This document shows, piece by piece, positions 3,026 to 60,428 of a DNA stretch of 64,000 nt. Position 1 is the first letter of the stretch; every line of letters begins with the position of its first letter. The DNA is from a virus, in the IMG/VR virus record IMGVR_UViG_3300023084_000017, positions 1-64,000 of that record; one strand, given 5' to 3'. Both the position numbers and the translations under genes were made by a program. The notes beneath the pieces were generated by a model. The model was not told the origin of the DNA and did not search any database. It worked only from the letters and a program-made list of their open reading frames with translations.

Positions 3026-4087
3026 TTAACTCCAGCTTACATTTCCTGTACCAGCAGTTATTGTTGCTACTGTATCTGAACCATCAGAAGCAGTAGTTAA
3101 AGATAAACCTGTTTGTGATATTGTGTAAGTATTTGGATAACGAAGTATAACTAATCCAGAGCCACCACTAGCACCAAAATTTGTACTATTAGCAGAAGCT
3201 CCACCTCCACCACCTGTATTAGCAGTTCCAGCAGTAGGTGTTCCTCCATCACTACCAGCTCCACCTCCACCTGTTCCACCAGAGCCACCAGCAGTTGTTC
3301 CAGCACCTCCACCACCACCTGCTCTTGTTGCAGAACTACCAGTTATAGAAGATGCTTTACCTGCACCACCTGCACCACCAGTTCCAGATGAACCATTAGA
3401 ACCAGCAGCACCAGCTCCACCTCCACCTCCACCTGCATTAGGTGCTGTAGCAGCAGTACCAGTCCAGTTTCCACCATTACTTCCTTGTGCATATAAACCA
3501 GCAGCTCCATCACCACCAGAACCACCATCTGGATTATATCGTGGTCCTCCTCCACCACCAGAACCACCCCTTCTTGCAGCAGGAAATGATTTTGCACCAC
3601 CTCCACCACCAAAAGCATATAAAGAACCTACATAACTTGGGAAACCATCATTTGATGAACTAAAATCGTGATTATTTCCTGTTCCTCCTGCACCTATAGT
3701 TACTGGATAATTAGTAGATGGAATAACATAAAAAGAATTTAAAGTTACAGAGCCACCACCAGAAGTTTCAGAATTAAATTTACATAAGTAACCACCTGCT
3801 CCACCACCACCAGATGCTTCTACACCTGAACCAGAAGCACCATATCCACCTGCTCCTCCACCAGCAATAATTAAATATTCTAATTCAAAAACATTACCAC
3901 CAGATTGCCAAGATGTACCATTGTAATGTTCTACTTGTCCAGTAGTTGAATTATATATAATATCTCCAGTAGTTGAAGTCAAAGCATCTCTTTCTACTGT
4001 GGTATAAGATTTTAAATTTAAAGCGTTATCCATAGCAACGCTATTACCTGTGCTTTTTTCTATGCTGTCTACTTGTAATCTACTCAT
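3026..4087 (-). CDS. Glycine-rich tail fibre/adhesin paralogue
   Basis: 353 residues. The N-module (residues 1-65: NSVAMDNALNLKSYTTVERD, IIYNSTTGQ, YNGTSW) is followed by a glycine-rich region from YLIIAGGGAGGYG to about residue 315, with repeated GGGGAG/GGSGG runs and VTIGAGGTG. It ends in a beta-rich tail (ITAGTGNVSWS). This is the first of the tandem adhesin genes to be transcribed. Its ATG overlaps the stop of the 35-residue gene at 4084-4191 (ATGA). Receptor-binding function is inferred from the adhesin-like composition. Confidence 0.8.
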   Translation of the reverse strand: MSRLQVDSIEKSTGNSVAMDNALNLKSYTTVERDALTSTTGDIIYNSTTGQVEHYNGTSWQSGGNVFELEYLIIAGGGAGGYGASGSGVEASGGGGAGGYLCKFNSETSGGGSVTLNSFYVIPSTNYPVTIGAGGTGNNHDFSSSNDGFPSYVGSLYAFGGGGGAKSFPAARRGGSGGGGGPRYNPDGGSGGDGAAGLYAQGSNGGNWTGTAATAPNAGGGGGGAGAAGSNGSSGTGGAGGAGKASSITGSSATRAGGGGGAGTTAGGSGGTGGGGAGSDGGTPTAGTANTGGGGGASANSTNFGASGGSGLVILRYPNTYTISQTGLSLTTASDGSDTVATITAGTGNVSWS

Positions 4088-38871: not shown

Positions 38872-40035
38872 TTATGCAGATAGTCTACTTTGTTTTAAAG
38901 ATTGTAATTCTTCTCCTACATCTTCAAACATCTCTGACCACATTGGTTGCCAGTAACCTACTGGTCTTAATTGGTCAAACTGTCTAGCTACTCTGACACC
39001 TTTTTGCATCAGCTTAACTCCAATATTATCCCAAACAGTTTTAGCCTTGTGAAAGTCGAACTTCTTTTCCATTGCAATCATTGTTCTGAAAGAAGCAAGA
39101 ACAGGAACGAGTACTGCTTGTTGTAGTACGTATTCCATTTCTTTATCATCTTCAATGAATAGTGTTTGGTTTTTATTGTTAGACCATTTGGAAAATATAA
39201 ATGGAGTATCATCTATAGTTTCGCCTGTAGCCTCACACCACATTGGATAAGAAGTTTCTTGTACATAGTCTTTGAATTTATATATAGCTTTTAGACTAGA
39301 CTCAAACTTCTTGTATTCTGCTTTAGATTCCTCATAACGTGCAACAATTTTATTTTTGCCACCATAAGCCCATACTTTATTTATAGGTTTAGTTGTTAAT
39401 TCAGAACCATCTGGGATTAATGAATATACAGTAGAAAGAATATCTCTAACTTTTATAGTACCTTCATCTCCTTGGAAATAGACTATTGAATCTTCATAAG
39501 GCGTATTCTTGAAACCTTTTTTAATCCATTCAAATTCTCCCTTATGGTTCAACAATGATTCATCACTGACTTGTAATGAGTTGTTGAGACCAATAGAGAT
39601 ATTTAGTCTTGTGCTTTCATCTGTAACACCAGTCATAATAAACACTCTAACTAGCCTATCTTCTGGAATAGAATTACTATTCTCTCTAATAGCACCATAC
39701 AAGTGTCCACCATTAACAACACCATCTTTGTTTGATAGCGTAAGTGTTATTGAATTATCTTCTACTACTGCATCAGTAGCAAAGATATGTATGCCAAGTG
39801 CTGCAAACATAAATAAGTCTGGCGTCTCTTGCTCATCAGTAAGAGCTGCAACCATTTCTTTATATGATGCTTTGTCAGCTATTGGCTTTCTTGGATTTGG
39901 ATTATCTGGTAATTCATCAGCTTCAGCTAAATCCTTACATTTGATATATCCATAGTATTCTTTAACATTCTTATCAGTTAAAGAAGTTAGTGTACGAATT
40001 GCCTGAATAGGCAGTGTGATTTTTGCATTACGCAT
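38872..40035 (-). CDS. AIPR-like protein
   Basis: 387 residues from MRNAKITLPIQAIRTLTSL, chosen because AGAGGA lies at ribosome-site distance; an in-frame TTG 54 bases upstream lacks one. Core motifs: DGVVNGGHLYGAIRENSNS, RVFIMTGVTDE, RLNISIGLNNSLQVSDESLL then EFEWIKKGF. These resemble the AIPR (abortive-infection phage-resistance) family, where an NGGQT-like motif is followed by a duty segment with N-x-Q/L-V. It has its own sigma70-like promoter and terminator inside the late region. A phage copy could act in superinfection exclusion; the biochemical activity is unknown. Confidence 0.6.
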   Translation of the reverse strand: MRNAKITLPIQAIRTLTSLTDKNVKEYYGYIKCKDLAEADELPDNPNPRKPIADKASYKEMVAALTDEQETPDLFMFAALGIHIFATDAVVEDNSITLTLSNKDGVVNGGHLYGAIRENSNSIPEDRLVRVFIMTGVTDESTRLNISIGLNNSLQVSDESLLNHKGEFEWIKKGFKNTPYEDSIVYFQGDEGTIKVRDILSTVYSLIPDGSELTTKPINKVWAYGGKNKIVARYEESKAEYKKFESSLKAIYKFKDYVQETSYPMWCEATGETIDDTPFIFSKWSNNKNQTLFIEDDKEMEYVLQQAVLVPVLASFRTMIAMEKKFDFHKAKTVWDNIGVKLMQKGVRVARQFDQLRPVGYWQPMWSEMFEDVGEELQSLKQSRLSA

Positions 40036-40109
40036 TTTATCCTCTTTCTTTTTTGAGATATCCTTTTGATAATCTCTCTTACCACGCAACTTTTGTTGGT
40101 GTATAAGAA

Positions 40110-44924: not shown

Positions 44925-46835
44925 ATGAAAGTATTGCAATTGGCTGAGGCCAACGCAATTGCTGATGCACAACCCGACATCAATCATGCACCTAATTTTA
45001 GGTATGGTGATTATGACGGACTTGTGTTCCTATGTGACGTTAACGAAATCGTCACTCAAACACATATAAGTAACTGTGGTCAAACAGAATACTTGTATTC
45101 AATACTGGAACCTTATCTTCAATTATTTGATGATAAAGGTTATGACATACTTGATTGGATAGAAGAACTAGACAATCAAATGAATCAAGTAGCTAATTCC
45201 TTACACCTAAAGGACTGGGTCTTAACAAAAGAAACAGATTCTATTAACCAAGGTGTGATGATTGGTATTTACCAAATGGATACTACTGTATTCGGTGGTT
45301 ATGCGAACCATGAGTGGCAAACCTACTTTACCAACAATGATGGTAAGGTTACTAACTATGGTCGTCGTATGGCCATGGAGAAAAGTAGCAGTAGGTTCAT
45401 GCCACTTCGTGACTTAGAACAGAACATTGGTGCTCGATACACTAAGTGTGTCATGTGTCAATGCTTCAACAAAGTCAGAACACACATGGTACCAATACGA
45501 CATGCTAAGCCTGGTGCAAGGCAAGCTTGGAGCAACAGAAAGAATGTATGTATATCATGCATCAAGTATGTTGCCAAAGACCAACTTGTATCACAGAACA
45601 GACCAAATCTAAGATTGTGGCAAGGTTCAGTAGGATTCGATGGCATAGACCAACTATTCTACAACCCTTCACGAGATGATTGGTCATGGAATGATACTTG
45701 GGGAACTGATGTATTCGAGAATGCAAATGCTGAATACAAAAGATTCTTCCGCAAGTTAGATGAAGATACCATCTTCAGAATCAGAATGATTGAACGAATT
45801 GATATTCCTAGATGGACATTTAGATTCGATACAACATTCCACAATTGGAACTACAGGTTCCCTGTGAGATTAGTAGGAGTTAGAGAAGATGGATTGATAG
45901 AATCAGACAGTCCTGGTGGAAATTACCAAGATACTGATTGGTTCTACAACACAGGTCCTTACTATGGTATGGAGTTTGAATGCTTTGTCAGAAATGACAG
46001 AAGTGATTACAGAGATTCCAACATAGTAATGGAAGATACAATCCGTATGTTCCACGATACTGATTATCCAAAGGCACATATGGAGTTCTATGATGGTGAG
46101 CATCAACTGTTGTACAGAAAACATGATGGTAGCTTAAGAGATGGTATAGGAGTTGAGTTTGTATCTCAACCACTTAGCTATGACTACTGGATGAAAGAAA
46201 TACCACAGAGATTCTGGGATTATTTCCAGAACAATTTCAGAGCTAGGAACTCTGAGGAATGTGGAATACACATTCATATTGGATGGGATAGTATGCAAGT
46301 TGCAGAACGTTATGTATTCCTTAAGATACTAAACGAGCTCAACAAGAAACGAAGCCCATTACTTGCAGCTATTGCAGGTAGAGATAGTACATACTATGCA
46401 ACATGGAACACTCTGTTCTATCAAGGTAGTGCAGATACAGCATTCATGGTTGCAATGGAAAAGAAGCAGACAAGTCAGTCTTCTACTCCTAAGTACAATG
46501 CTATCAATACATTGCATGACAGCACTATAGAGTTGAGATACTTTCAGGGTAATACAGGTAGAAAATCTATCTTAGGTATTGTCCAGTTTGTTGACTTAAT
46601 CTACAGACATGCTGTTGATGTAATACATTCTGACACACATAGTGAAGGTACTAGATGGGACTACTCGCAAGAAGGTCCACGTACATTCCTACAAAGTCAG
46701 TTAGACAAAATAAACAACAATGTGGATGAGTACTTACTAGATGTACTCAGTAACTATCCGAACGACAGGATTAATTACTTAGTCCACAGATTAGAAATGG
46801 CAGACTACGAGTTGCCAGAAAACATAAACATATAA
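44925..46835 (+). CDS. Amidoligase-family enzyme 1
   Basis: 636 residues. Residues 340-560 hold the amidoligase (GCS/glutamine-synthetase-like COOH-NH2 ligase) signature: YYGMEFECFVR (Glu350, Glu352), KHDGSLRDGIGVEFVSQP (399-416), ECGIHIHIGW (445-454) and LHDSTIELRYFQGN (530-543). Residues 165-215 form a zinc-ribbon-like unit (KCVMCQC, VCISCIKY). The first 160 residues are unassigned. Such enzymes use ATP to form amide bonds. Next to a class II glutamine amidotransferase and a second amidoligase, it probably forms an amide on an unknown carboxylate (peptide, wall or protein). Confidence 0.82.
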   Translation: MKVLQLAEANAIADAQPDINHAPNFRYGDYDGLVFLCDVNEIVTQTHISNCGQTEYLYSILEPYLQLFDDKGYDILDWIEELDNQMNQVANSLHLKDWVLTKETDSINQGVMIGIYQMDTTVFGGYANHEWQTYFTNNDGKVTNYGRRMAMEKSSSRFMPLRDLEQNIGARYTKCVMCQCFNKVRTHMVPIRHAKPGARQAWSNRKNVCISCIKYVAKDQLVSQNRPNLRLWQGSVGFDGIDQLFYNPSRDDWSWNDTWGTDVFENANAEYKRFFRKLDEDTIFRIRMIERIDIPRWTFRFDTTFHNWNYRFPVRLVGVREDGLIESDSPGGNYQDTDWFYNTGPYYGMEFECFVRNDRSDYRDSNIVMEDTIRMFHDTDYPKAHMEFYDGEHQLLYRKHDGSLRDGIGVEFVSQPLSYDYWMKEIPQRFWDYFQNNFRARNSEECGIHIHIGWDSMQVAERYVFLKILNELNKKRSPLLAAIAGRDSTYYATWNTLFYQGSADTAFMVAMEKKQTSQSSTPKYNAINTLHDSTIELRYFQGNTGRKSILGIVQFVDLIYRHAVDVIHSDTHSEGTRWDYSQEGPRTFLQSQLDKINNNVDEYLLDVLSNYPNDRINYLVHRLEMADYELPENINI

Positions 46836-46848
46836 AGAAAGGAAATAT

Positions 46849-47787
46849 ATGTGCGTAATAGCAAGCGTCCCTGCGACGAAAAACATAGATAACAATACCC
46901 TTGACCAAATGTGGAAGAGAAACCCAGATGGTGGAGGTATTGCTTGGATAGATGAGAATGGAAAGGTTCAAGTCTACAAGACAATGAAACTCAAGAGCTT
47001 CAAGCAGAAGTTCAAAGAGGTGGTAGCTAAGTATGGTAAGTCAGACATACTTGTACACATGAGAATAGCAACTCATGGTTCTGTATGTATTGATAACAAC
47101 CATCCATTCCACATCGACCCTAATACGGTCTTTGCACACAATGGAATCATGCCTAGTGAGTTCCATCCACCTGCTAAGTCAGATATGTCTGATACAAGAT
47201 ACTTCAATCAAGTATTCTTGCAGAATGTCAAGCCGACTGCATTTGATGATGAGCAGTTCAGAACAGCACTTGGAGATATCGTAGGCTTCAACAAGCTAGT
47301 GATACTCTCAGCCAACAAGAGACTGAAGAAAGAATCGTACATTATCAATGAGCATATGGGTTCATGGGAGAAAGGTGTTTGGTATTCCAATACACATCAC
47401 AAACCATACAAGAAACCTACAAGCATAATCGGCAGCACAACTATACAGCCAAGGTTGTTAGACACAACTGAGGATGCATGCTTCATCAATGAAGATACTG
47501 GTGACATCTGGTATGAAGATGCTCATGACATTATTTACTCAGAGTTTATACCTGAGGATATGTTAGATGATGTTGAGTTGCAGGACAAGATAACAGTAAT
47601 GCTAGAAAATTCAGTGATGGATTACTACACAGTAGATGACCTAATCATTGACTATGCATTACAGTTTGTTCCTGAGACCAAGTCATTCCAATGTGAAGAA
47701 TGTGGAGCAGAGGTTGACGACAAGCTTAAGAGAGCATGTAACAAAGAATGTGAGTGTCAATACTTACAAGAAATGACAAGGAGGTAA
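46849..47787 (+). CDS. Class II glutamine amidotransferase
   Basis: 312 residues. Begins MCVIASVP; removal of Met exposes Cys2, the N-terminal nucleophile. Other Ntn-amidotransferase marks: NPDGGGIAWIDENGKV, HMRIATHGS (Arg), NNHPFHI and VFAHNGIMP. It should release ammonia from glutamine. The C-terminus has a zinc-ribbon-like FQCEECGAEVDD with CNKECEC. Starts 13 bases after amidoligase 1, suggesting it supplies ammonia to it. Confidence 0.85.
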   Translation: MCVIASVPATKNIDNNTLDQMWKRNPDGGGIAWIDENGKVQVYKTMKLKSFKQKFKEVVAKYGKSDILVHMRIATHGSVCIDNNHPFHIDPNTVFAHNGIMPSEFHPPAKSDMSDTRYFNQVFLQNVKPTAFDDEQFRTALGDIVGFNKLVILSANKRLKKESYIINEHMGSWEKGVWYSNTHHKPYKKPTSIIGSTTIQPRLLDTTEDACFINEDTGDIWYEDAHDIIYSEFIPEDMLDDVELQDKITVMLENSVMDYYTVDDLIIDYALQFVPETKSFQCEECGAEVDDKLKRACNKECECQYLQEMTRR

Positions 47788-47788
47788 C

Positions 47789-48178
47789 GTGGTAGTTCCT
47801 GACTGGAATAGAGTAGGTTCGCAAGAGCCTACTCAATCTATTGGTAACAACGAGTCATATCCTTTATATCAGAGAGAAGAAGATGATATAGAAAATAGAC
47901 GAGTAAGAATAACAACTGAACATGTAGGTAGAGTAACTTACACAGAGAATGGTTATACAACTTATAACATGAGTGAAGTACTTGACTATGCAGTTGAAGT
48001 GGGATACTTAGGTTCCACTGACAGACTAGCTGGTAACCTACCTTTAGATAACGTATTGAGAGAGTGGGCTCAAGAATTATTTGAAGAGAATTGGGATATT
48101 GACGATTATGAAAACTACGAAACTGGTGATGATTATGAACAACAAGATTCATACATCGAAGACGTAGAAATTATATAA
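47789..48178 (+). CDS. Acidic PxWN-family protein 1
   Basis: 129 residues, GTG start one base after the amidotransferase stop, with AAGGAGG upstream. N-terminus MVVPDWNR shares P-x-W-N with proteins at 49443, 50161 and 54611-55093. Middle VGRVTYTENGYTTYNMSEVL, then a highly acidic, tyrosine-rich tail (DDYENYETGDDYEQQDS). It may be a regulator or a substrate of the ligases. Confidence 0.6.
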   Translation: MVVPDWNRVGSQEPTQSIGNNESYPLYQREEDDIENRRVRITTEHVGRVTYTENGYTTYNMSEVLDYAVEVGYLGSTDRLAGNLPLDNVLREWAQELFEENWDIDDYENYETGDDYEQQDSYIEDVEII

Positions 48179-48192
48179 GAAAGGAGATTACA

Positions 48193-49263
48193 TTGGACGA
48201 CCAACGTAAATCAGAAATCAAAAGAAAAATAACATACAACATGGACATGGATGTTCATGGATATGGTTACAAACCAAGCGTCTACTTTATTGGTAGAAAC
48301 TTAGTGCAGTCTGCACTTGCAAGTAAGGAAGCTCAAGCAGAGCATGCATTCTTTACACTAGAAGGTCTGCCTATGGGTATGGAGTTGGAAGTTGAATACA
48401 GAAGAGATGTCTACTGTGACATTGAAGATGTAATTCATACTATCAACAAGGAAGCTATGAGTAGAGCCTATGTAGATAGGTTCAATGAGTACGACAATGA
48501 TGTTCTTACTCACCATACTGTATCACCAGTACAGTTCTTCATAGCTAAGACTGACGGTTCACTAAGTGATGGTATTGAGTTTGTATCTCAACCAATGTCA
48601 CTTGGTGTATGGAGAGACATACCATTGGTGTTCGAGGACTACAATGATGTCTTTGCTGCATTCCACAGACGAACTACTGGATTGCACATTCATGTACCGA
48701 AAGCTGCATTTACAGATTCACATCTATTCACATGGATGTTGTTGATGCAGACACTTGGTAAAACAAGTATCAATCACAATACAACAGGCTCACTATTGTC
48801 CCTTATTGGTCAGAGAAGATTCAATAACTGGGCAAGGTTTGAACAACCAACAGTGAGTGCAGAAGTTAAATCTAAGTTAGCACAAGTTGCAATCGATAGA
48901 ACGAATACTGATGGACAAAGATATAAGTATCTCAATCTACATCCGCAACACACAATAGAACTTAGGTTCTTCAAAGCTAACCTTAAGACAAATCGACTAC
49001 TCAAGAACTTAGAGTTTGTCGATTCAACTTATGAATACACAAAGATGCTTGACACAACTAAGGATAGTATGACAATACTAGACAGTGTGTTGAGTGCTAG
49101 TGATTGGTATGAGTACATTCAACAAGAGAAGTACTCAAACTTAACAGAGTATCTAAGACCATACGAACACAGATTCGGTAGTCAATTAGATGCATTAGAT
49201 ACTAGATACGACTTGGACAATGAGTTTGACCAAGAAGTTCTAGCACATATGAAAGGAGAATAG
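48193..49263 (+). CDS. Amidoligase-family enzyme 2
   Basis: 356 residues, TTG start with AAAGGAG seven bases upstream. Same signature as enzyme 1 without its long N-terminus: MGMELEVEYR (62-66), AKTDGSLSDGIEFVSQP (118-134), TGLHIHVPKA (162-171), HPQHTIELRFFKANL (250-264). Probably a paralogue. Two such ligases with one amidotransferase could act as a heteromer or on successive carboxylates. Confidence 0.8.
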   Translation: MDDQRKSEIKRKITYNMDMDVHGYGYKPSVYFIGRNLVQSALASKEAQAEHAFFTLEGLPMGMELEVEYRRDVYCDIEDVIHTINKEAMSRAYVDRFNEYDNDVLTHHTVSPVQFFIAKTDGSLSDGIEFVSQPMSLGVWRDIPLVFEDYNDVFAAFHRRTTGLHIHVPKAAFTDSHLFTWMLLMQTLGKTSINHNTTGSLLSLIGQRRFNNWARFEQPTVSAEVKSKLAQVAIDRTNTDGQRYKYLNLHPQHTIELRFFKANLKTNRLLKNLEFVDSTYEYTKMLDTTKDSMTILDSVLSASDWYEYIQQEKYSNLTEYLRPYEHRFGSQLDALDTRYDLDNEFDQEVLAHMKGE

Positions 49264-49442: not shown

Positions 49443-49859
49443 ATGGCAACTGTACCAGCTTGGAACAGAATCAAAACAAGACTTGAGGAGTTAGGCTATA
49501 GCCTAACCCTCGAGCAGTTTAAAAACCTAGAGATAGATATCAGAATCATAGAGACTGGAACATGTGTTTACACACAGGAATCTAGAATCAGAGGTGACTT
49601 AGACACCTTAGTAGATATAGATGATGTGTTAGATTACGACGCTGATGAATATGCTTTAGGTGACAGAATATCTGATTCACTTAGAGATACAGGTGAAATC
49701 TATGAAGGAAGCGTTACCAATGTTGAGTATGAAGACCATGATGTAGATGAATGCTACATTGAGAATATCTATTACTCAGTAACCATGGAAGATGGTGAGG
49801 TTGTTAACTTAAACAAATCTGACATAACAGAACTATTACAAACACTAGGGAGGGAATAA
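49443..49859 (+). CDS. Acidic PxWN-family protein 2
   Basis: 138 residues: MATVPAWNRIKTRLEELGYS, then an acidic body (DDVLDYDADEYALGDRISDS, EDHDVDECYIENIYYSV). A perfect 18-base palindrome (49490-49507) lies near its 5' end. Coupled to the previous gene by an immediately adjacent start. Unknown function. Confidence 0.58.
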   Translation: MATVPAWNRIKTRLEELGYSLTLEQFKNLEIDIRIIETGTCVYTQESRIRGDLDTLVDIDDVLDYDADEYALGDRISDSLRDTGEIYEGSVTNVEYEDHDVDECYIENIYYSVTMEDGEVVNLNKSDITELLQTLGRE

Positions 49860-50160: not shown

Positions 50161-50556
50161 ATGACGATACCAAAATGGAATCAAACAGAAACAACACTAT
50201 CTAACGATAGATTAAGTATGAGTAGTGCTGGAGATACAGAATACTACATAGATGTACAACGAGATATTGTTAGAAGTGTACGATACCATCAGTCTGCTGC
50301 TTTGTATGTCACATTGCAACAACTGATTGAACTAGATTACCTACCAAGTTCAGCGTATCATTATGAAGAAGATGGTATGGGTGGATTTGATGTAGAGATT
50401 ACAGACCAACATGCAATGAATGTTGCATTAGAAGAATATGCATCAGACCAAGATGCTGATGATACATTCTTTGAAGCATATGAAGAAGAAGCATATGACT
50501 CTGGTGATGTTATTAGTACAACTGATACAGAGGTATATGAGTGGGGTGTTAACTAA
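50161..50556 (+). CDS. Acidic PxWN-family protein 3
   Basis: 131 residues: MTIPKWNQTETTLSNDRLSM, then VRSVRYHQSAALYVTLQQLI, acidic tail (EEEAYDSGDVISTTDTEVYE). Resembles protein 1 (VTYTEN...TYNMSEVLDYA) in middle layout. Starts immediately after the preceding stop. Confidence 0.58.
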   Translation: MTIPKWNQTETTLSNDRLSMSSAGDTEYYIDVQRDIVRSVRYHQSAALYVTLQQLIELDYLPSSAYHYEEDGMGGFDVEITDQHAMNVALEEYASDQDADDTFFEAYEEEAYDSGDVISTTDTEVYEWGVN

Positions 50557-50571
50557 AGAAAGGAGATTGTC

Positions 50572-50694
50572 ATACAAATACTTAATCTTGAGTTTGTAAA
50601 ATGGTTGATTGTAATGCTTATATCAATACCAATTACATTCTTATTAATAATAGCACTTGTAGTTACTGTAGATAACTACACTCTAGACGACTAG
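50572..50694 (+). CDS. Possible small membrane protein, non-ATG start
   Basis: About 40 residues if an ATA start at normal distance from AAAGGAG is used (other possible starts: ATT at 50566, internal ATG at 50614). Sequence contains ILNLEFVKWLIVMLISIPIT and LLIIALVVTVDN, a clear transmembrane helix, and ends TLDD. Last gene of the amidoligase operon. Start codon uncertain. Confidence 0.4.
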   Translation: MQILNLEFVKWLIVMLISIPITFLLIIALVVTVDNYTLDD

Positions 50695-50704
50695 AGGTTA
50701 TATT

Positions 50705-51473: not shown

Positions 51474-51625
51474 TGGAAGTATTCAGTAGTTGGGTATTAG
51501 GTTGGTTTGCTACGACTATTCCTTGGGGTCTGGTAAAAGAAGATGTTGCAGAGATTGTTGAAGAAACGGCAATCTATTACACATCAACCAATGATTTGTC
51601 CTTTTGGTATAAGGAGAATGTGTAA
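51473..51625 (+). CDS. Small hypothetical protein
   Basis: 50 residues: MEVFSSWVLGWFATTIPWGL then EIVEETAIYYTSTNDLSFWY. A hydrophobic N-terminal segment may be membrane-associated. GGGAG upstream, TAATG overlap. Confidence 0.48.
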   Translation: MEVFSSWVLGWFATTIPWGLVKEDVAEIVEETAIYYTSTNDLSFWYKENV

Positions 51626-51643
51626 TGGGTAGAAGGGGACTAT

Positions 51644-51982
51644 ATGTTGTATGCTGATAAAAAGATTGTGAAATTATTCACTTATGTCTATTACACACAA
51701 GCAAAGTATTGGTACTTTAGATACAGATGTAATAACATTTATAATAATTTTCTGGCTGATTACTTTCCAAATTTCTGGAGAGCAGAAAGAAGATATCTTA
51801 AAGGCATAGTTTATCGTTACCGATTACACAAAAAACTTGGTGTATGGTTTAGACCAATCGTAAAAAATAAAAGAAGTGATGTCTTATTTCACAATGTCAA
51901 TGTGTATCTAAGTATGTGGGAGTATTACTCTGGTAAAAAATACTACCTCAGTCGTTATCTTAAGAAAGCTATAACTTCCTAA
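51644..51982 (+). CDS. Basic tyrosine-rich protein
   Basis: 112 residues, strongly basic and aromatic: LFTYVYYTQAKYWYFRYRCN, YFPNFWRAERRYLKGIVYRY. Likely nucleic-acid binding; AAGGGG upstream of ATG. No family recognised. Confidence 0.5.
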   Translation: MLYADKKIVKLFTYVYYTQAKYWYFRYRCNNIYNNFLADYFPNFWRAERRYLKGIVYRYRLHKKLGVWFRPIVKNKRSDVLFHNVNVYLSMWEYYSGKKYYLSRYLKKAITS

Positions 51983-57531: not shown

Positions 57532-57903
57532 TCATTCTTCCTGCTCACTACTGAAGGTCCACTCTTCTTTTGCGTTAAACTTAGACCATACATCCCACTG
57601 TTTCATTGTTTCATCTCCATATTTAACACTCCATACTTTATTCATATTTTTAATCTGCTCTTTAGATTGCTCATAATCTTTTCGACTATTGTTCCTACCA
57701 GTTGCATTAGCCCAATCAATTACGGTTTTAGTCTTCCATAATTTAGTTCTACCTTTATTGATAGAAGCATCTGGCTTTGGTAACACATACCTTTGTTGCC
57801 ATTGAGATACAGTAGAAGGTTTAACACCTAATACTTCTGCTATCTCATTAACTCCCAGTGGGTAATCCTCGAAAGAATATTCCTCTGCGTTTTGATTGCT
57901 CAT
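57532..57903 (-). CDS. HTH DNA-binding protein
   Basis: 123 residues from MSNQNAEEYSFEDYPLGVNE (start after GGAGGAA; a longer frame would overlap the zinc-finger gene heavily). LGVNEIAEVLGVKPSTVSQW then RYVLPKPDASINKGRTKLWK is a clear helix-turn-helix with wing (AlpA/MerR-like). Probable regulator of early genes. It overlaps the upstream zinc-finger gene by about 55 bases. Confidence 0.72.
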   Translation of the reverse strand: MSNQNAEEYSFEDYPLGVNEIAEVLGVKPSTVSQWQQRYVLPKPDASINKGRTKLWKTKTVIDWANATGRNNSRKDYEQSKEQIKNMNKVWSVKYGDETMKQWDVWSKFNAKEEWTFSSEQEE

Positions 57904-58987
57904 TATTTCCTCCAATATATATTTTGTAAAATTCTTCTGGACTCTTTTGATTGTATTTATCATACGAACAGTCCCATCTGTATTTATTAATAAATGATTG
58001 TGCATTATCAAATCTGCTACCGACTTCTTTAATACAGAACCTACAATAATCAGTGACATGTGGTCTGTGTTGTGGATAAGGTCTTACTAAGTAATAATCC
58101 CAATAATCAACAGTGGTACAGCCTTCTGTTTTACATTCTTTGTTTACAGCTAAATCAAAGTCTATAAATTTTTGTTTTCTTTTCTTGTTCGACATTTGAA
58201 ATCTTTCCATACATTGTCGACAGTTAGACTGAAGACCACCACTTTGACGTTTAGATAAATCAAAATATCTCCTATGCTTTACGACTTTACAAGCTGTACA
58301 TTTTTTTTCACTAGCAATTTTTGTTGGGTCGTATTCTTCTTTTCTTTTCTCATAGTAAGCACTCACTTGTGCAATACTACATTCTTTACAAGTTCTAGAA
58401 TATCCATGTCTTGTCTTTTCAGAATTATGAAAATCTGCAACTGGCAATGTTAATTTACATCTGTAACATTTTAAAGTTTCTGGATTGTCTAATTTATGTT
58501 CTCTTATTCTTATTGCTTCATCAAACATATCAGCAACTTTTTGATTCCTAATTTTCCAATACTGAACATAGTTCTCATTGACATCAACAAAAGCAAAAAT
58601 ACTCTTCATAGCAACGTAAGGTTTGTTAGCCAATATGTCTGTATACTCTTTTATCTTTTCAAAGTTTGGTGACTCACCATATGTAGAAATCATTCTATCC
58701 CTACCCATGTCTGTACCAAATGTTTTTTTATACAATATTCTTACGGCCTCTCTCGTTGTTTTGAAAACATCAGCCCAAGCTTGTATTGTATAATCGGGAT
58801 AGATTTCAATTAAGACTTTAAATGTATCTGCATCGGGTAATCTCTCATGTCTCATCTTGTGAATTGGACATATCATCATCTTCTTACTTAAAGATACTGA
58901 ATCATCGTGTATCATTTCACAATCAATATAAAAATATTTATATATTTCTTTTATTTGTTCGTCGTTAAATTGAGCCATTGCGGGCAT
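57848..58987 (-). CDS. Multi-zinc-finger DNA-binding protein
   Basis: 379 residues. Residues 40-110 include CPIHKMRH and an HTH-like DYTIQAWADVFKTTREAVRI. Residues 175-300 hold zinc pairs: CYRC...CKEC, CTAC...CRQC and CKTEGC...CRFC, the spacing seen before HNH nuclease domains. No HNH catalytic core is visible, so it may be a regulator or a degenerate homing-type protein. Driven by its own early promoter (59007-59038). Confidence 0.65.
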   Translation of the reverse strand: MPAMAQFNDEQIKEIYKYFYIDCEMIHDDSVSLSKKMMICPIHKMRHERLPDADTFKVLIEIYPDYTIQAWADVFKTTREAVRILYKKTFGTDMGRDRMISTYGESPNFEKIKEYTDILANKPYVAMKSIFAFVDVNENYVQYWKIRNQKVADMFDEAIRIREHKLDNPETLKCYRCKLTLPVADFHNSEKTRHGYSRTCKECSIAQVSAYYEKRKEEYDPTKIASEKKCTACKVVKHRRYFDLSKRQSGGLQSNCRQCMERFQMSNKKRKQKFIDFDLAVNKECKTEGCTTVDYWDYYLVRPYPQHRPHVTDYCRFCIKEVGSRFDNAQSFINKYRWDCSYDKYNQKSPEEFYKIYIGGNNEQSKRRGIFFRGLPTGS

Positions 58988-60081: not shown

Positions 60082-60133
60082 ATCTTATTACGATGATGAC
60101 TATGGGTTTGATGATTTAGACTATGAACTATAG
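60068..60133 (+). CDS. Tiny acidic peptide
   Basis: 21 residues: MEEDKSYYDDDYGFDDLDYE then Leu. Overlaps both neighbours; GGG lies upstream. Acidic Asp/Tyr-rich like other early peptides here. Translation uncertain. Confidence 0.35.
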   Translation: MEEDKSYYDDDYGFDDLDYEL

Positions 60134-60428
60134 ACCATTACCAGACGAAGTAAGTATAAAGAAATCTAACATAGAAGGCTTAGGTTTGTTTAGTACTTGC
60201 GCAATAAAAGAAGGTAAGAACTTAGGTATGACTCACTATAAAGCACCAGAACTAGAGAATGGTTTATGTAGAACACCACTAGGTGGTTTTATAAATCACA
60301 GTGACACACCTAATTGTGAGTTGATAGGAATAGGAAAAGGTAAGTATTTAATTACATTAAAAGATATAATGCCAGACGAAGAGATAACTCTTGAATACAC
60401 AATGTATAAAGTTGATAAGGTATTATAG
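60123..60428 (+). CDS. Minimal SET-domain protein
   Basis: 101 residues with core SET motifs: SIKKSNIEGLGLFSTCAIKE, LGGFINHSDTPNCELIGIG, YLITLKDIMPDEEITLEYTM. The N-H-S-x2-P-N and E-E-I-T-x-E-Y blocks are the AdoMet and active-site Tyr regions of SET lysine methyltransferases. No pre- or post-SET regions. A possible target is a host or phage lysine; unverified. Confidence 0.72.
   Translation: MNYRPLPDEVSIKKSNIEGLGLFSTCAIKEGKNLGMTHYKAPELENGLCRTPLGGFINHSDTPNCELIGIGKGKYLITLKDIMPDEEITLEYTMYKVDKVL

Follow-up and report, generated by a model that had tools for sequence, protein, structure and literature searches.

A probable glutamine-dependent amidation module with a duplicated amidoligase in a tailed phage of a WhiB-carrying lineage

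Phage gene cassettes that combine an amidoligase with a class II glutamine amidotransferase (GAT) have been published for phiEco32, LUZ24-like phages and PSA-HP1; a gamma-glutamyl cyclotransferase (GGCT) and ATP-grasp enzymes are their usual partners, and two ligases are sometimes present (PMC3890496, PMC5498523, PMC10580990). RIO-1, which is grouped with PSA-HP1, as well as Marvin and the OM43 phages are also among the phages with described cassettes. Phage amidoligase–glutaminase cassettes are thus widespread, yet their target is not shown in the published literature that we found. Here we describe a relative of these cassettes on a stretch of 64,000 nucleotides (the window), which corresponds to positions 1-64,000 of the 65,040-base virus record IMGVR_UViG_3300023084_000017. 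The module lies on the + strand at 44925-49263 and encodes two amidoligases, LIG1 and LIG2, that flank a single GAT.

The locus is probably a phage glutamine-dependent amidation module related to the amidoligase/GAT/GGCT cassettes, in which the ligase has been duplicated. An earlier note, made from the DNA letters and their open reading frames, had proposed two ATP-dependent amidoligases and a glutaminase that feeds them, and this enzyme assignment is supported because family profiles, catalytic residues, fold and conserved gene order all agree with it. The GAT would hydrolyse glutamine and pass the ammonia to the ligases, which would activate a carboxylate with ATP and form an amide, or couple another amine instead. 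LIG1 may represent the ordinary enzyme with a zinc-ribbon-like part that binds a substrate or partner, while LIG2, which is devoid of this part, could provide a second specificity or a second subunit. It is important to point out that the same note considered the arrangement to match no described phage system. This was mistaken, since amidoligase and GAT cassettes have been published, some of them with two ligases, and a system without precedent can be rejected on the same grounds. The kind of cassette is known, and what stands of the claim is the duplication within one family: we found no published description of two paralogous PF12224-type ligases around one GAT, one of them without the Cys4 motif. 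What is new here is therefore a variant only, namely a duplicated ligase, one copy of which lacks the N-terminal Cys4 motif, around one GAT.

LIG1 (44925..46835, + strand, 636 amino acids, ATG start) matches PF12224 with 24.6 bits, above the curated cut-off of 22 bits. The protein consists of an N-terminal region (residues ~1-335), which harbours a Cys4 motif (C175-x2-C178 ... C209-x2-C212) that is a probable zinc ribbon, and a catalytic domain (~336-602). LIG2 (48193..49263, + strand, 356 amino acids, TTG start) is a catalytic domain without the N-terminal Cys4 region; it matches PHROG 22302 (E 9e-14) and PHROG 16683 (E 4e-12), and its core aligns with that of LIG1 (E 2e-17, 27% identity). 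When conserved columns are defined from an alignment of 149 other phage ligases, the acidic, His and Arg columns are retained in both proteins alike: E350, E352, D401, S403, E411, H449, H451, R486, N528, E536 and R538 in LIG1, and G62, E64, E66, D121, S123, G127, E129, P134, G163, H165, H167, R208, N248, T254, E256, R258 and F260 in LIG2. Departures are minor (K in place of R at position 523 of LIG1, and Y in place of A at position 246 of LIG2). All of the amidoligase motifs that had been noted in two proteins flanking a Cys2 GAT hold, together with their coordinates, and no loss of catalytic Glu or His is seen in either ligase. A degenerate LIG2 is not supported, given its retained active-site columns.

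The predicted structures point in the same direction. The AlphaFold model of LIG2 (predicted local distance difference test, pLDDT, 90; predicted template modelling score, pTM, 0.92) adopts a glutamine-synthetase-like ligase fold and does not fall outside the amidoligase fold. This model matches six PDB structures at E<=0.001, each of which is a YbdK-type gamma-glutamyl ligase, the Pup ligase PafA or the depupylase Dop; the fold matches also include gamma-glutamylmethylamide synthetase and glutamate-cysteine ligase, and the viral structure matches are phage amidoligases, including that of Mycobacterium phage Tesla. A sequence search for solved-structure relatives of LIG2 returned none that convinced. 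In the AlphaFold2 model of LIG1 the catalytic part is confident, with YbdK as the best PDB match (E 8.6e-5); the N-terminal region is modelled mostly under pLDDT 50, and structure-based identification of this region gave nothing. Profiles, fold and synteny together rule out a chance motif match.

The GAT (46849..47787, + strand, 312 amino acids) is a class II (Ntn) glutamine amidotransferase with a Cys2 nucleophile, which scores 31.5 bits against PF13230 (cut-off 23 bits) and aligns with the glutaminase domain of GlmS. Residues C2, R72, T75-H76-G77, N98-G99 and D115 are invariant across nine GATs and agree with GlmS; the predicted protein has the full class II glutaminase active site and should release ammonia. 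A Cys4 motif is located at its C-terminus (C282, C285, C297, C301). Of the profile checks that had been suggested for the three proteins, LIG1 and the GAT thus come out above the cut-offs of their families, but LIG2 does not, as discussed below.

The association of ligase and GAT extends far beyond this virus. Two alignment-based viral scans yielded 160 loci, which are ranked by similarity to the query and hence are no random sample; the ligase directly adjoins a GAT in nearly all of them, usually with one of each, and adjacent pairs are found at over 140 viral, phage and plasmid loci. Scans of the viral sequences with single proteins returned nothing but another contig of this virus. Among named phages the pair is present in Marvin and its relatives, the spring-water phage ctgrD200 and the OM43 phages, and a scan of host genomes gave one contig of a flavobacterial metagenome-assembled genome that has the pair with a single ligase and is probably of phage origin, assigned to this bin. 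Mycobacterial plasmids also carry a ligase–GAT pair (L169 4851-6523 and L170 4713-6367; NZ_CP015269, NZ_CP025548) and are possibly phage-plasmids. A tandem ligase-GAT-ligase-GAT array in another virus contig (L158 4319-9175) is a duplication of the whole pair and a different route to two ligases.

When the entire record was searched, a GGCT (PF06094, 75.9 bits) was detected at record positions 64613-64987, just past the window. A second contig (G016) represents the same virus, with 99.97% identity over 21.6 kb. There the GGCT is located about 2.4 kb downstream of LIG2 and is convergent with it, since the 51.6-65.0 kb segment has the opposite orientation to that in the given record; in two related records (G012, G014) it follows LIG2 at about 0.8 kb. 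The GGCT links the locus with the published amidoligase/GAT/cyclotransferase cassettes. It also bears on two other explanations. The cyclotransferase in the same genome, and the gamma-glutamylmethylamide synthetase and glutamate-cysteine ligase among the fold matches, could mean that the product of the module is a small metabolite, a gamma-glutamyl amide serving as signal, osmolyte or nitrogen store, which the cyclotransferase would recycle; we consider this quite unlikely, since an enzyme with one small conserved substrate would not usually be expected to be duplicated, to carry Cys4 motifs and to diverge fast. Alternatively, the module could serve host takeover by amidating or capping carboxylates of host proteins such as transcription factors or translation factors: the zinc-ribbon-type Cys4 motifs of LIG1 and the GAT could bind proteins, and the operon is placed outside the virion block and runs opposite to the structural genes. 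GGCT partners are more suggestive of gamma-glutamyl or peptide chemistry, and a host-protein target is unlikely, if somewhat less so than the metabolite.

An exact 59-base inverted repeat is present at 51587-51645 and at record positions 64982-65040, and the second contig joins 51645 to the reverse complement of 65040. The region at 51.6-65.0 kb represents either a segment that can invert or an artefact of the assembly graph; 59 is also a k-mer size used by one common assembler.

The duplicated ligase is a feature of more than one virus. The order LIG1-GAT-LIG2, or GAT-LIG1-LIG2, recurs in 14 further virus contigs (L090, L091, L092, L093, L094, L096, L097, L098, L099, L100, L101, L102, L103 and L181), some of which are near-copies of one another, so that the independent lineages are fewer; the neighbourhood survey in related phages that had been proposed thus finds LIG1, GAT and LIG2 kept together. 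For every one of the 14, the record encodes WhiB (accessed via L177-L186 and L099-L102), which points to a single putative actinophage lineage. LIG1 and LIG2 form one clade relative to the other phage ligases (support 100/98), and the approximately unbiased test does not reject single clades for LIG1 and for LIG2 (p-AU 0.33 and 0.31); these trees would most simply be explained by one duplication followed by joint inheritance. Two CxxC pairs precede the catalytic domain in 13/13 LIG1 and 140/150 other ligases but in 0/13 LIG2, a distribution that marks LIG1 as the apparent ordinary form and LIG2 as a seemingly stripped form with the active site kept.

The missing Cys4 region, which nearly all other phage ligases have, and a change of one conserved Asn column in the LIG2 of L094, L100 and L102 would be expected if LIG1 alone were catalytic and LIG2 served as a regulatory or structural paralogue in the complex. 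This is very unlikely: none of the 13 LIG2 examined has lost an acidic, His or Arg column, LIG1 too has a column change (one conserved His to Asn in L099-L102), and LIG2 is under purifying selection. Between L177 and L178, the closest relatives of the window, the ratio of nonsynonymous to synonymous substitution rates (dN/dS) is 0.38 for LIG1, 0.13 for the GAT and 0.18 for LIG2; all three genes are therefore maintained under purifying selection. The small-terminase, exonuclease, portal and terminase-region proteins of the window are 77-92% identical to those of L177/L178, whereas identity amounts to 45-47% for LIG1, 62-63% for the GAT, 53-54% for LIG2 and 31-43% for the acidic proteins. Such rapid divergence of the module next to stable packaging genes, with the active sites kept, would fit a role in conflict, although recombination between lineages would look similar.

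The acidic partner genes of the earlier note are real. An N-terminal (V/I)-P-x-W-N motif unites three small proteins (PxWN proteins), all encoded on the + strand: 47789..48178 (129 amino acids, leave-one-out hidden Markov model (HMM) E 4e-12), 49443..49859 (138 amino acids, E 5e-8) and 50161..50556 (131 amino acids, E 1e-11), with net charges of about -23, -23 and -24. They constitute one paralogous family with homologues in L090-L093 (leave-one-out HMM E 1e-4 to 5e-16), and orthologues of the 50161-50556 protein directly follow LIG2 in L091 and L092; a candidate in L094 reaches an E of 0.009 only. Searches of Pfam, PHROGs, PDB sequences (best E 0.045) and named phages gave no match. The position of one to three paralogues next to the ligases in the window, in L090-L093 and perhaps in L094, their strong acidity and the presence of PafA, which acts with Pup, among the best fold matches of LIG2 invite the idea that PxWN proteins are the substrates, with Asp/Glu side chains or C-termini being amidated or conjugated in the manner of Pup-PafA or of amino-group carrier protein. 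On the other hand, PxWN proteins are absent from the two-ligase loci L096 and L103, and a different acidic protein is found in L099 and L100; they are therefore no general requirement and poor candidates as a general substrate. Their C-termini are not conserved, and their sequences diverge very rapidly: in two viruses with 96% identity between the GATs, the PxWN proteins are 48% identical. Taken together, PxWN substrates are distinctly improbable. A two-target system, in which LIG1 and LIG2 would act on different carboxylates with one ammonia source and the PxWN proteins would be dedicated substrates or adaptors, yielding ribosomally encoded amidated proteins directed against host or rival phages, is very improbable.

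As to the role of the amidation module, the reading that we put forward, by analogy and with somewhat less than even confidence, is that it might modify host-envelope carboxylates, such as those of peptidoglycan peptides, during infection and thereby hinder competing phages. The literature on phiEco32-type cassettes offers envelope modification as a proposal only. In an unrelated Pseudomonas phage, missense changes affect the amidoligase and the glutaminase-like gene next to it in both directed-evolution isolates (PMC11450229), a finding that may be a hint, no more, that the cassette matters for the interaction with the host.

Several observations weigh against the identity of the module or its proposed role. 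LIG2 scores 16.1 bits against PF12224, below the cut-off, and is therefore placed by its homology to LIG1, its residues and its fold rather than by Pfam score; Marvin gp105 also remains under this cut-off (19.5 bits). Template modelling (TM) scores against solved structures are low, about 0.3, so that the fold match rests on E-values and on the nature of the hits, and the fold is of the same kind without matching closely. A GGCT was not seen in 13/16 related records, which are fragments. PF14395 has no match at E<=1 in the virus record (G000), which makes the locus a relative of the phiEco32 cassette and not its full form; LIG2 as a PF14395 ligase is likewise not supported by the Pfam scan. 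The faster divergence of module genes compared with packaging genes fits no particular target, and in the published literature we found no activity or target for any PF12224 phage enzyme.

The record contains HK97-type capsid, protease, portal and terminase genes and therefore represents a tailed phage. Judged by its WhiB gene (77.5 bits), the host is very probably an actinobacterium. Marine low-GC phages of Actinomarinales carry WhiB and have a GC content of 33.6-36.5% (PMC7771536); by analogy, a host of this type would fit the roughly 36% GC of the phage DNA here. The module is situated beyond the structural block in the order LIG1, GAT, acidic protein, LIG2, with intergenic gaps of 1 to 14 bases, and 3' of LIG2 the two further acidic proteins are each preceded by one small open frame. 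Ribosome-binding-site-like sequences are found 5' of both LIG1 and LIG2. The notion that the unit has its own promoter and terminator fared poorly: no sigma-70-like site occurs in the gap preceding 44925, promoter-like sites in the module region are fewer than in shuffled DNA (16 versus 37.1, standard deviation 5.9), and near the module end there is one + strand terminator-like site only, at 50681-50696, which is weak. The module proteins have no PADLOC match to a known defence system.

Elsewhere in the window, an AIPR-family protein (PF10592, 48 bits) is encoded at 38872-40089 near the WhiB and terminase genes, with homologues at the matching place in L180 and L186 and none in L177 and L178. 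A short SET-domain-like protein of 101 amino acids (60123-60428; PF00856, 38.7 bits) matches PHROG 28741, the function of which is unknown, and the 57848-58987 protein combines a Stc1-type zinc domain (PF12898, 32 bits) with matches to restriction-alleviation and endonuclease VII PHROGs. Three paralogous glycine-rich-domain proteins (PF21722) are clustered at the end of the structural block (130-1191, 1188-2237 and 3026-4087).

How does the module compare with the known systems? In phiEco32 the cassette spans gp77-gp86 and comprises a GGCT, an ATP-grasp enzyme, a class II GAT, a PF12224 amidoligase and a PF14395 COOH-NH2 ligase; our profile check recovered one PF12224 ligase, one PF14395 ligase, the GAT and the GGCT. 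As in phiEco32, the LUZ24-like phage UFV-P2 and PSA-HP1, a PF12224-type ligase adjoins the GAT and a GGCT is present in the genome, and as in phiEco32-type cassettes there are two ligases in all, in a non-structural gene region. The second ligase of phiEco32 and UFV-P2, however, is of the PF14395 type, whereas both ligases here are PF12224-type paralogues. The phiEco32-type cassettes also include an ATP-grasp enzyme; none was found among the Pfam-scanned proteins of the window, and Pfam barely detects even phiEco32 gp80.

Systems that amidate the bacterial cell wall offer an analogy of function only. LtsA/AsnB serves in peptidoglycan amidation; MurT has its relatives among the Mur ligases, and GatD belongs to the class I amidotransferases. 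With MurT/GatD, glutamine nitrogen amidates cell-wall peptides (PMC3267633).

Among phages, Clostridium clostridioforme prophages resemble the module in having two PHROG 2443 amidoligases and a GGCT, but their host is a firmicute and a class II GAT is not named in the available part of the description (PMC11318856). The OM43 phages MEP401/MEP402 and ctgrD200 have an adjacent amidoligase and GAT as seen here, but a single ligase and other hosts. The closest named homologues are Marvin gp105-gp106 and the mycobacterial plasmid pairs (about 30% identity for the ligase and about 32% for the GAT), which share the ligase–GAT order and actinobacterial hosts; unlike the module, these pairs have a single ligase and neither LIG2 nor PxWN proteins. 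A lineage in which two paralogues are conserved, only one of them with the Cys4 region, provides a natural comparison for what this region recognises, and gp105-gp106 of Marvin in Mycobacterium smegmatis, as the nearest tractable relative, makes the question directly testable.

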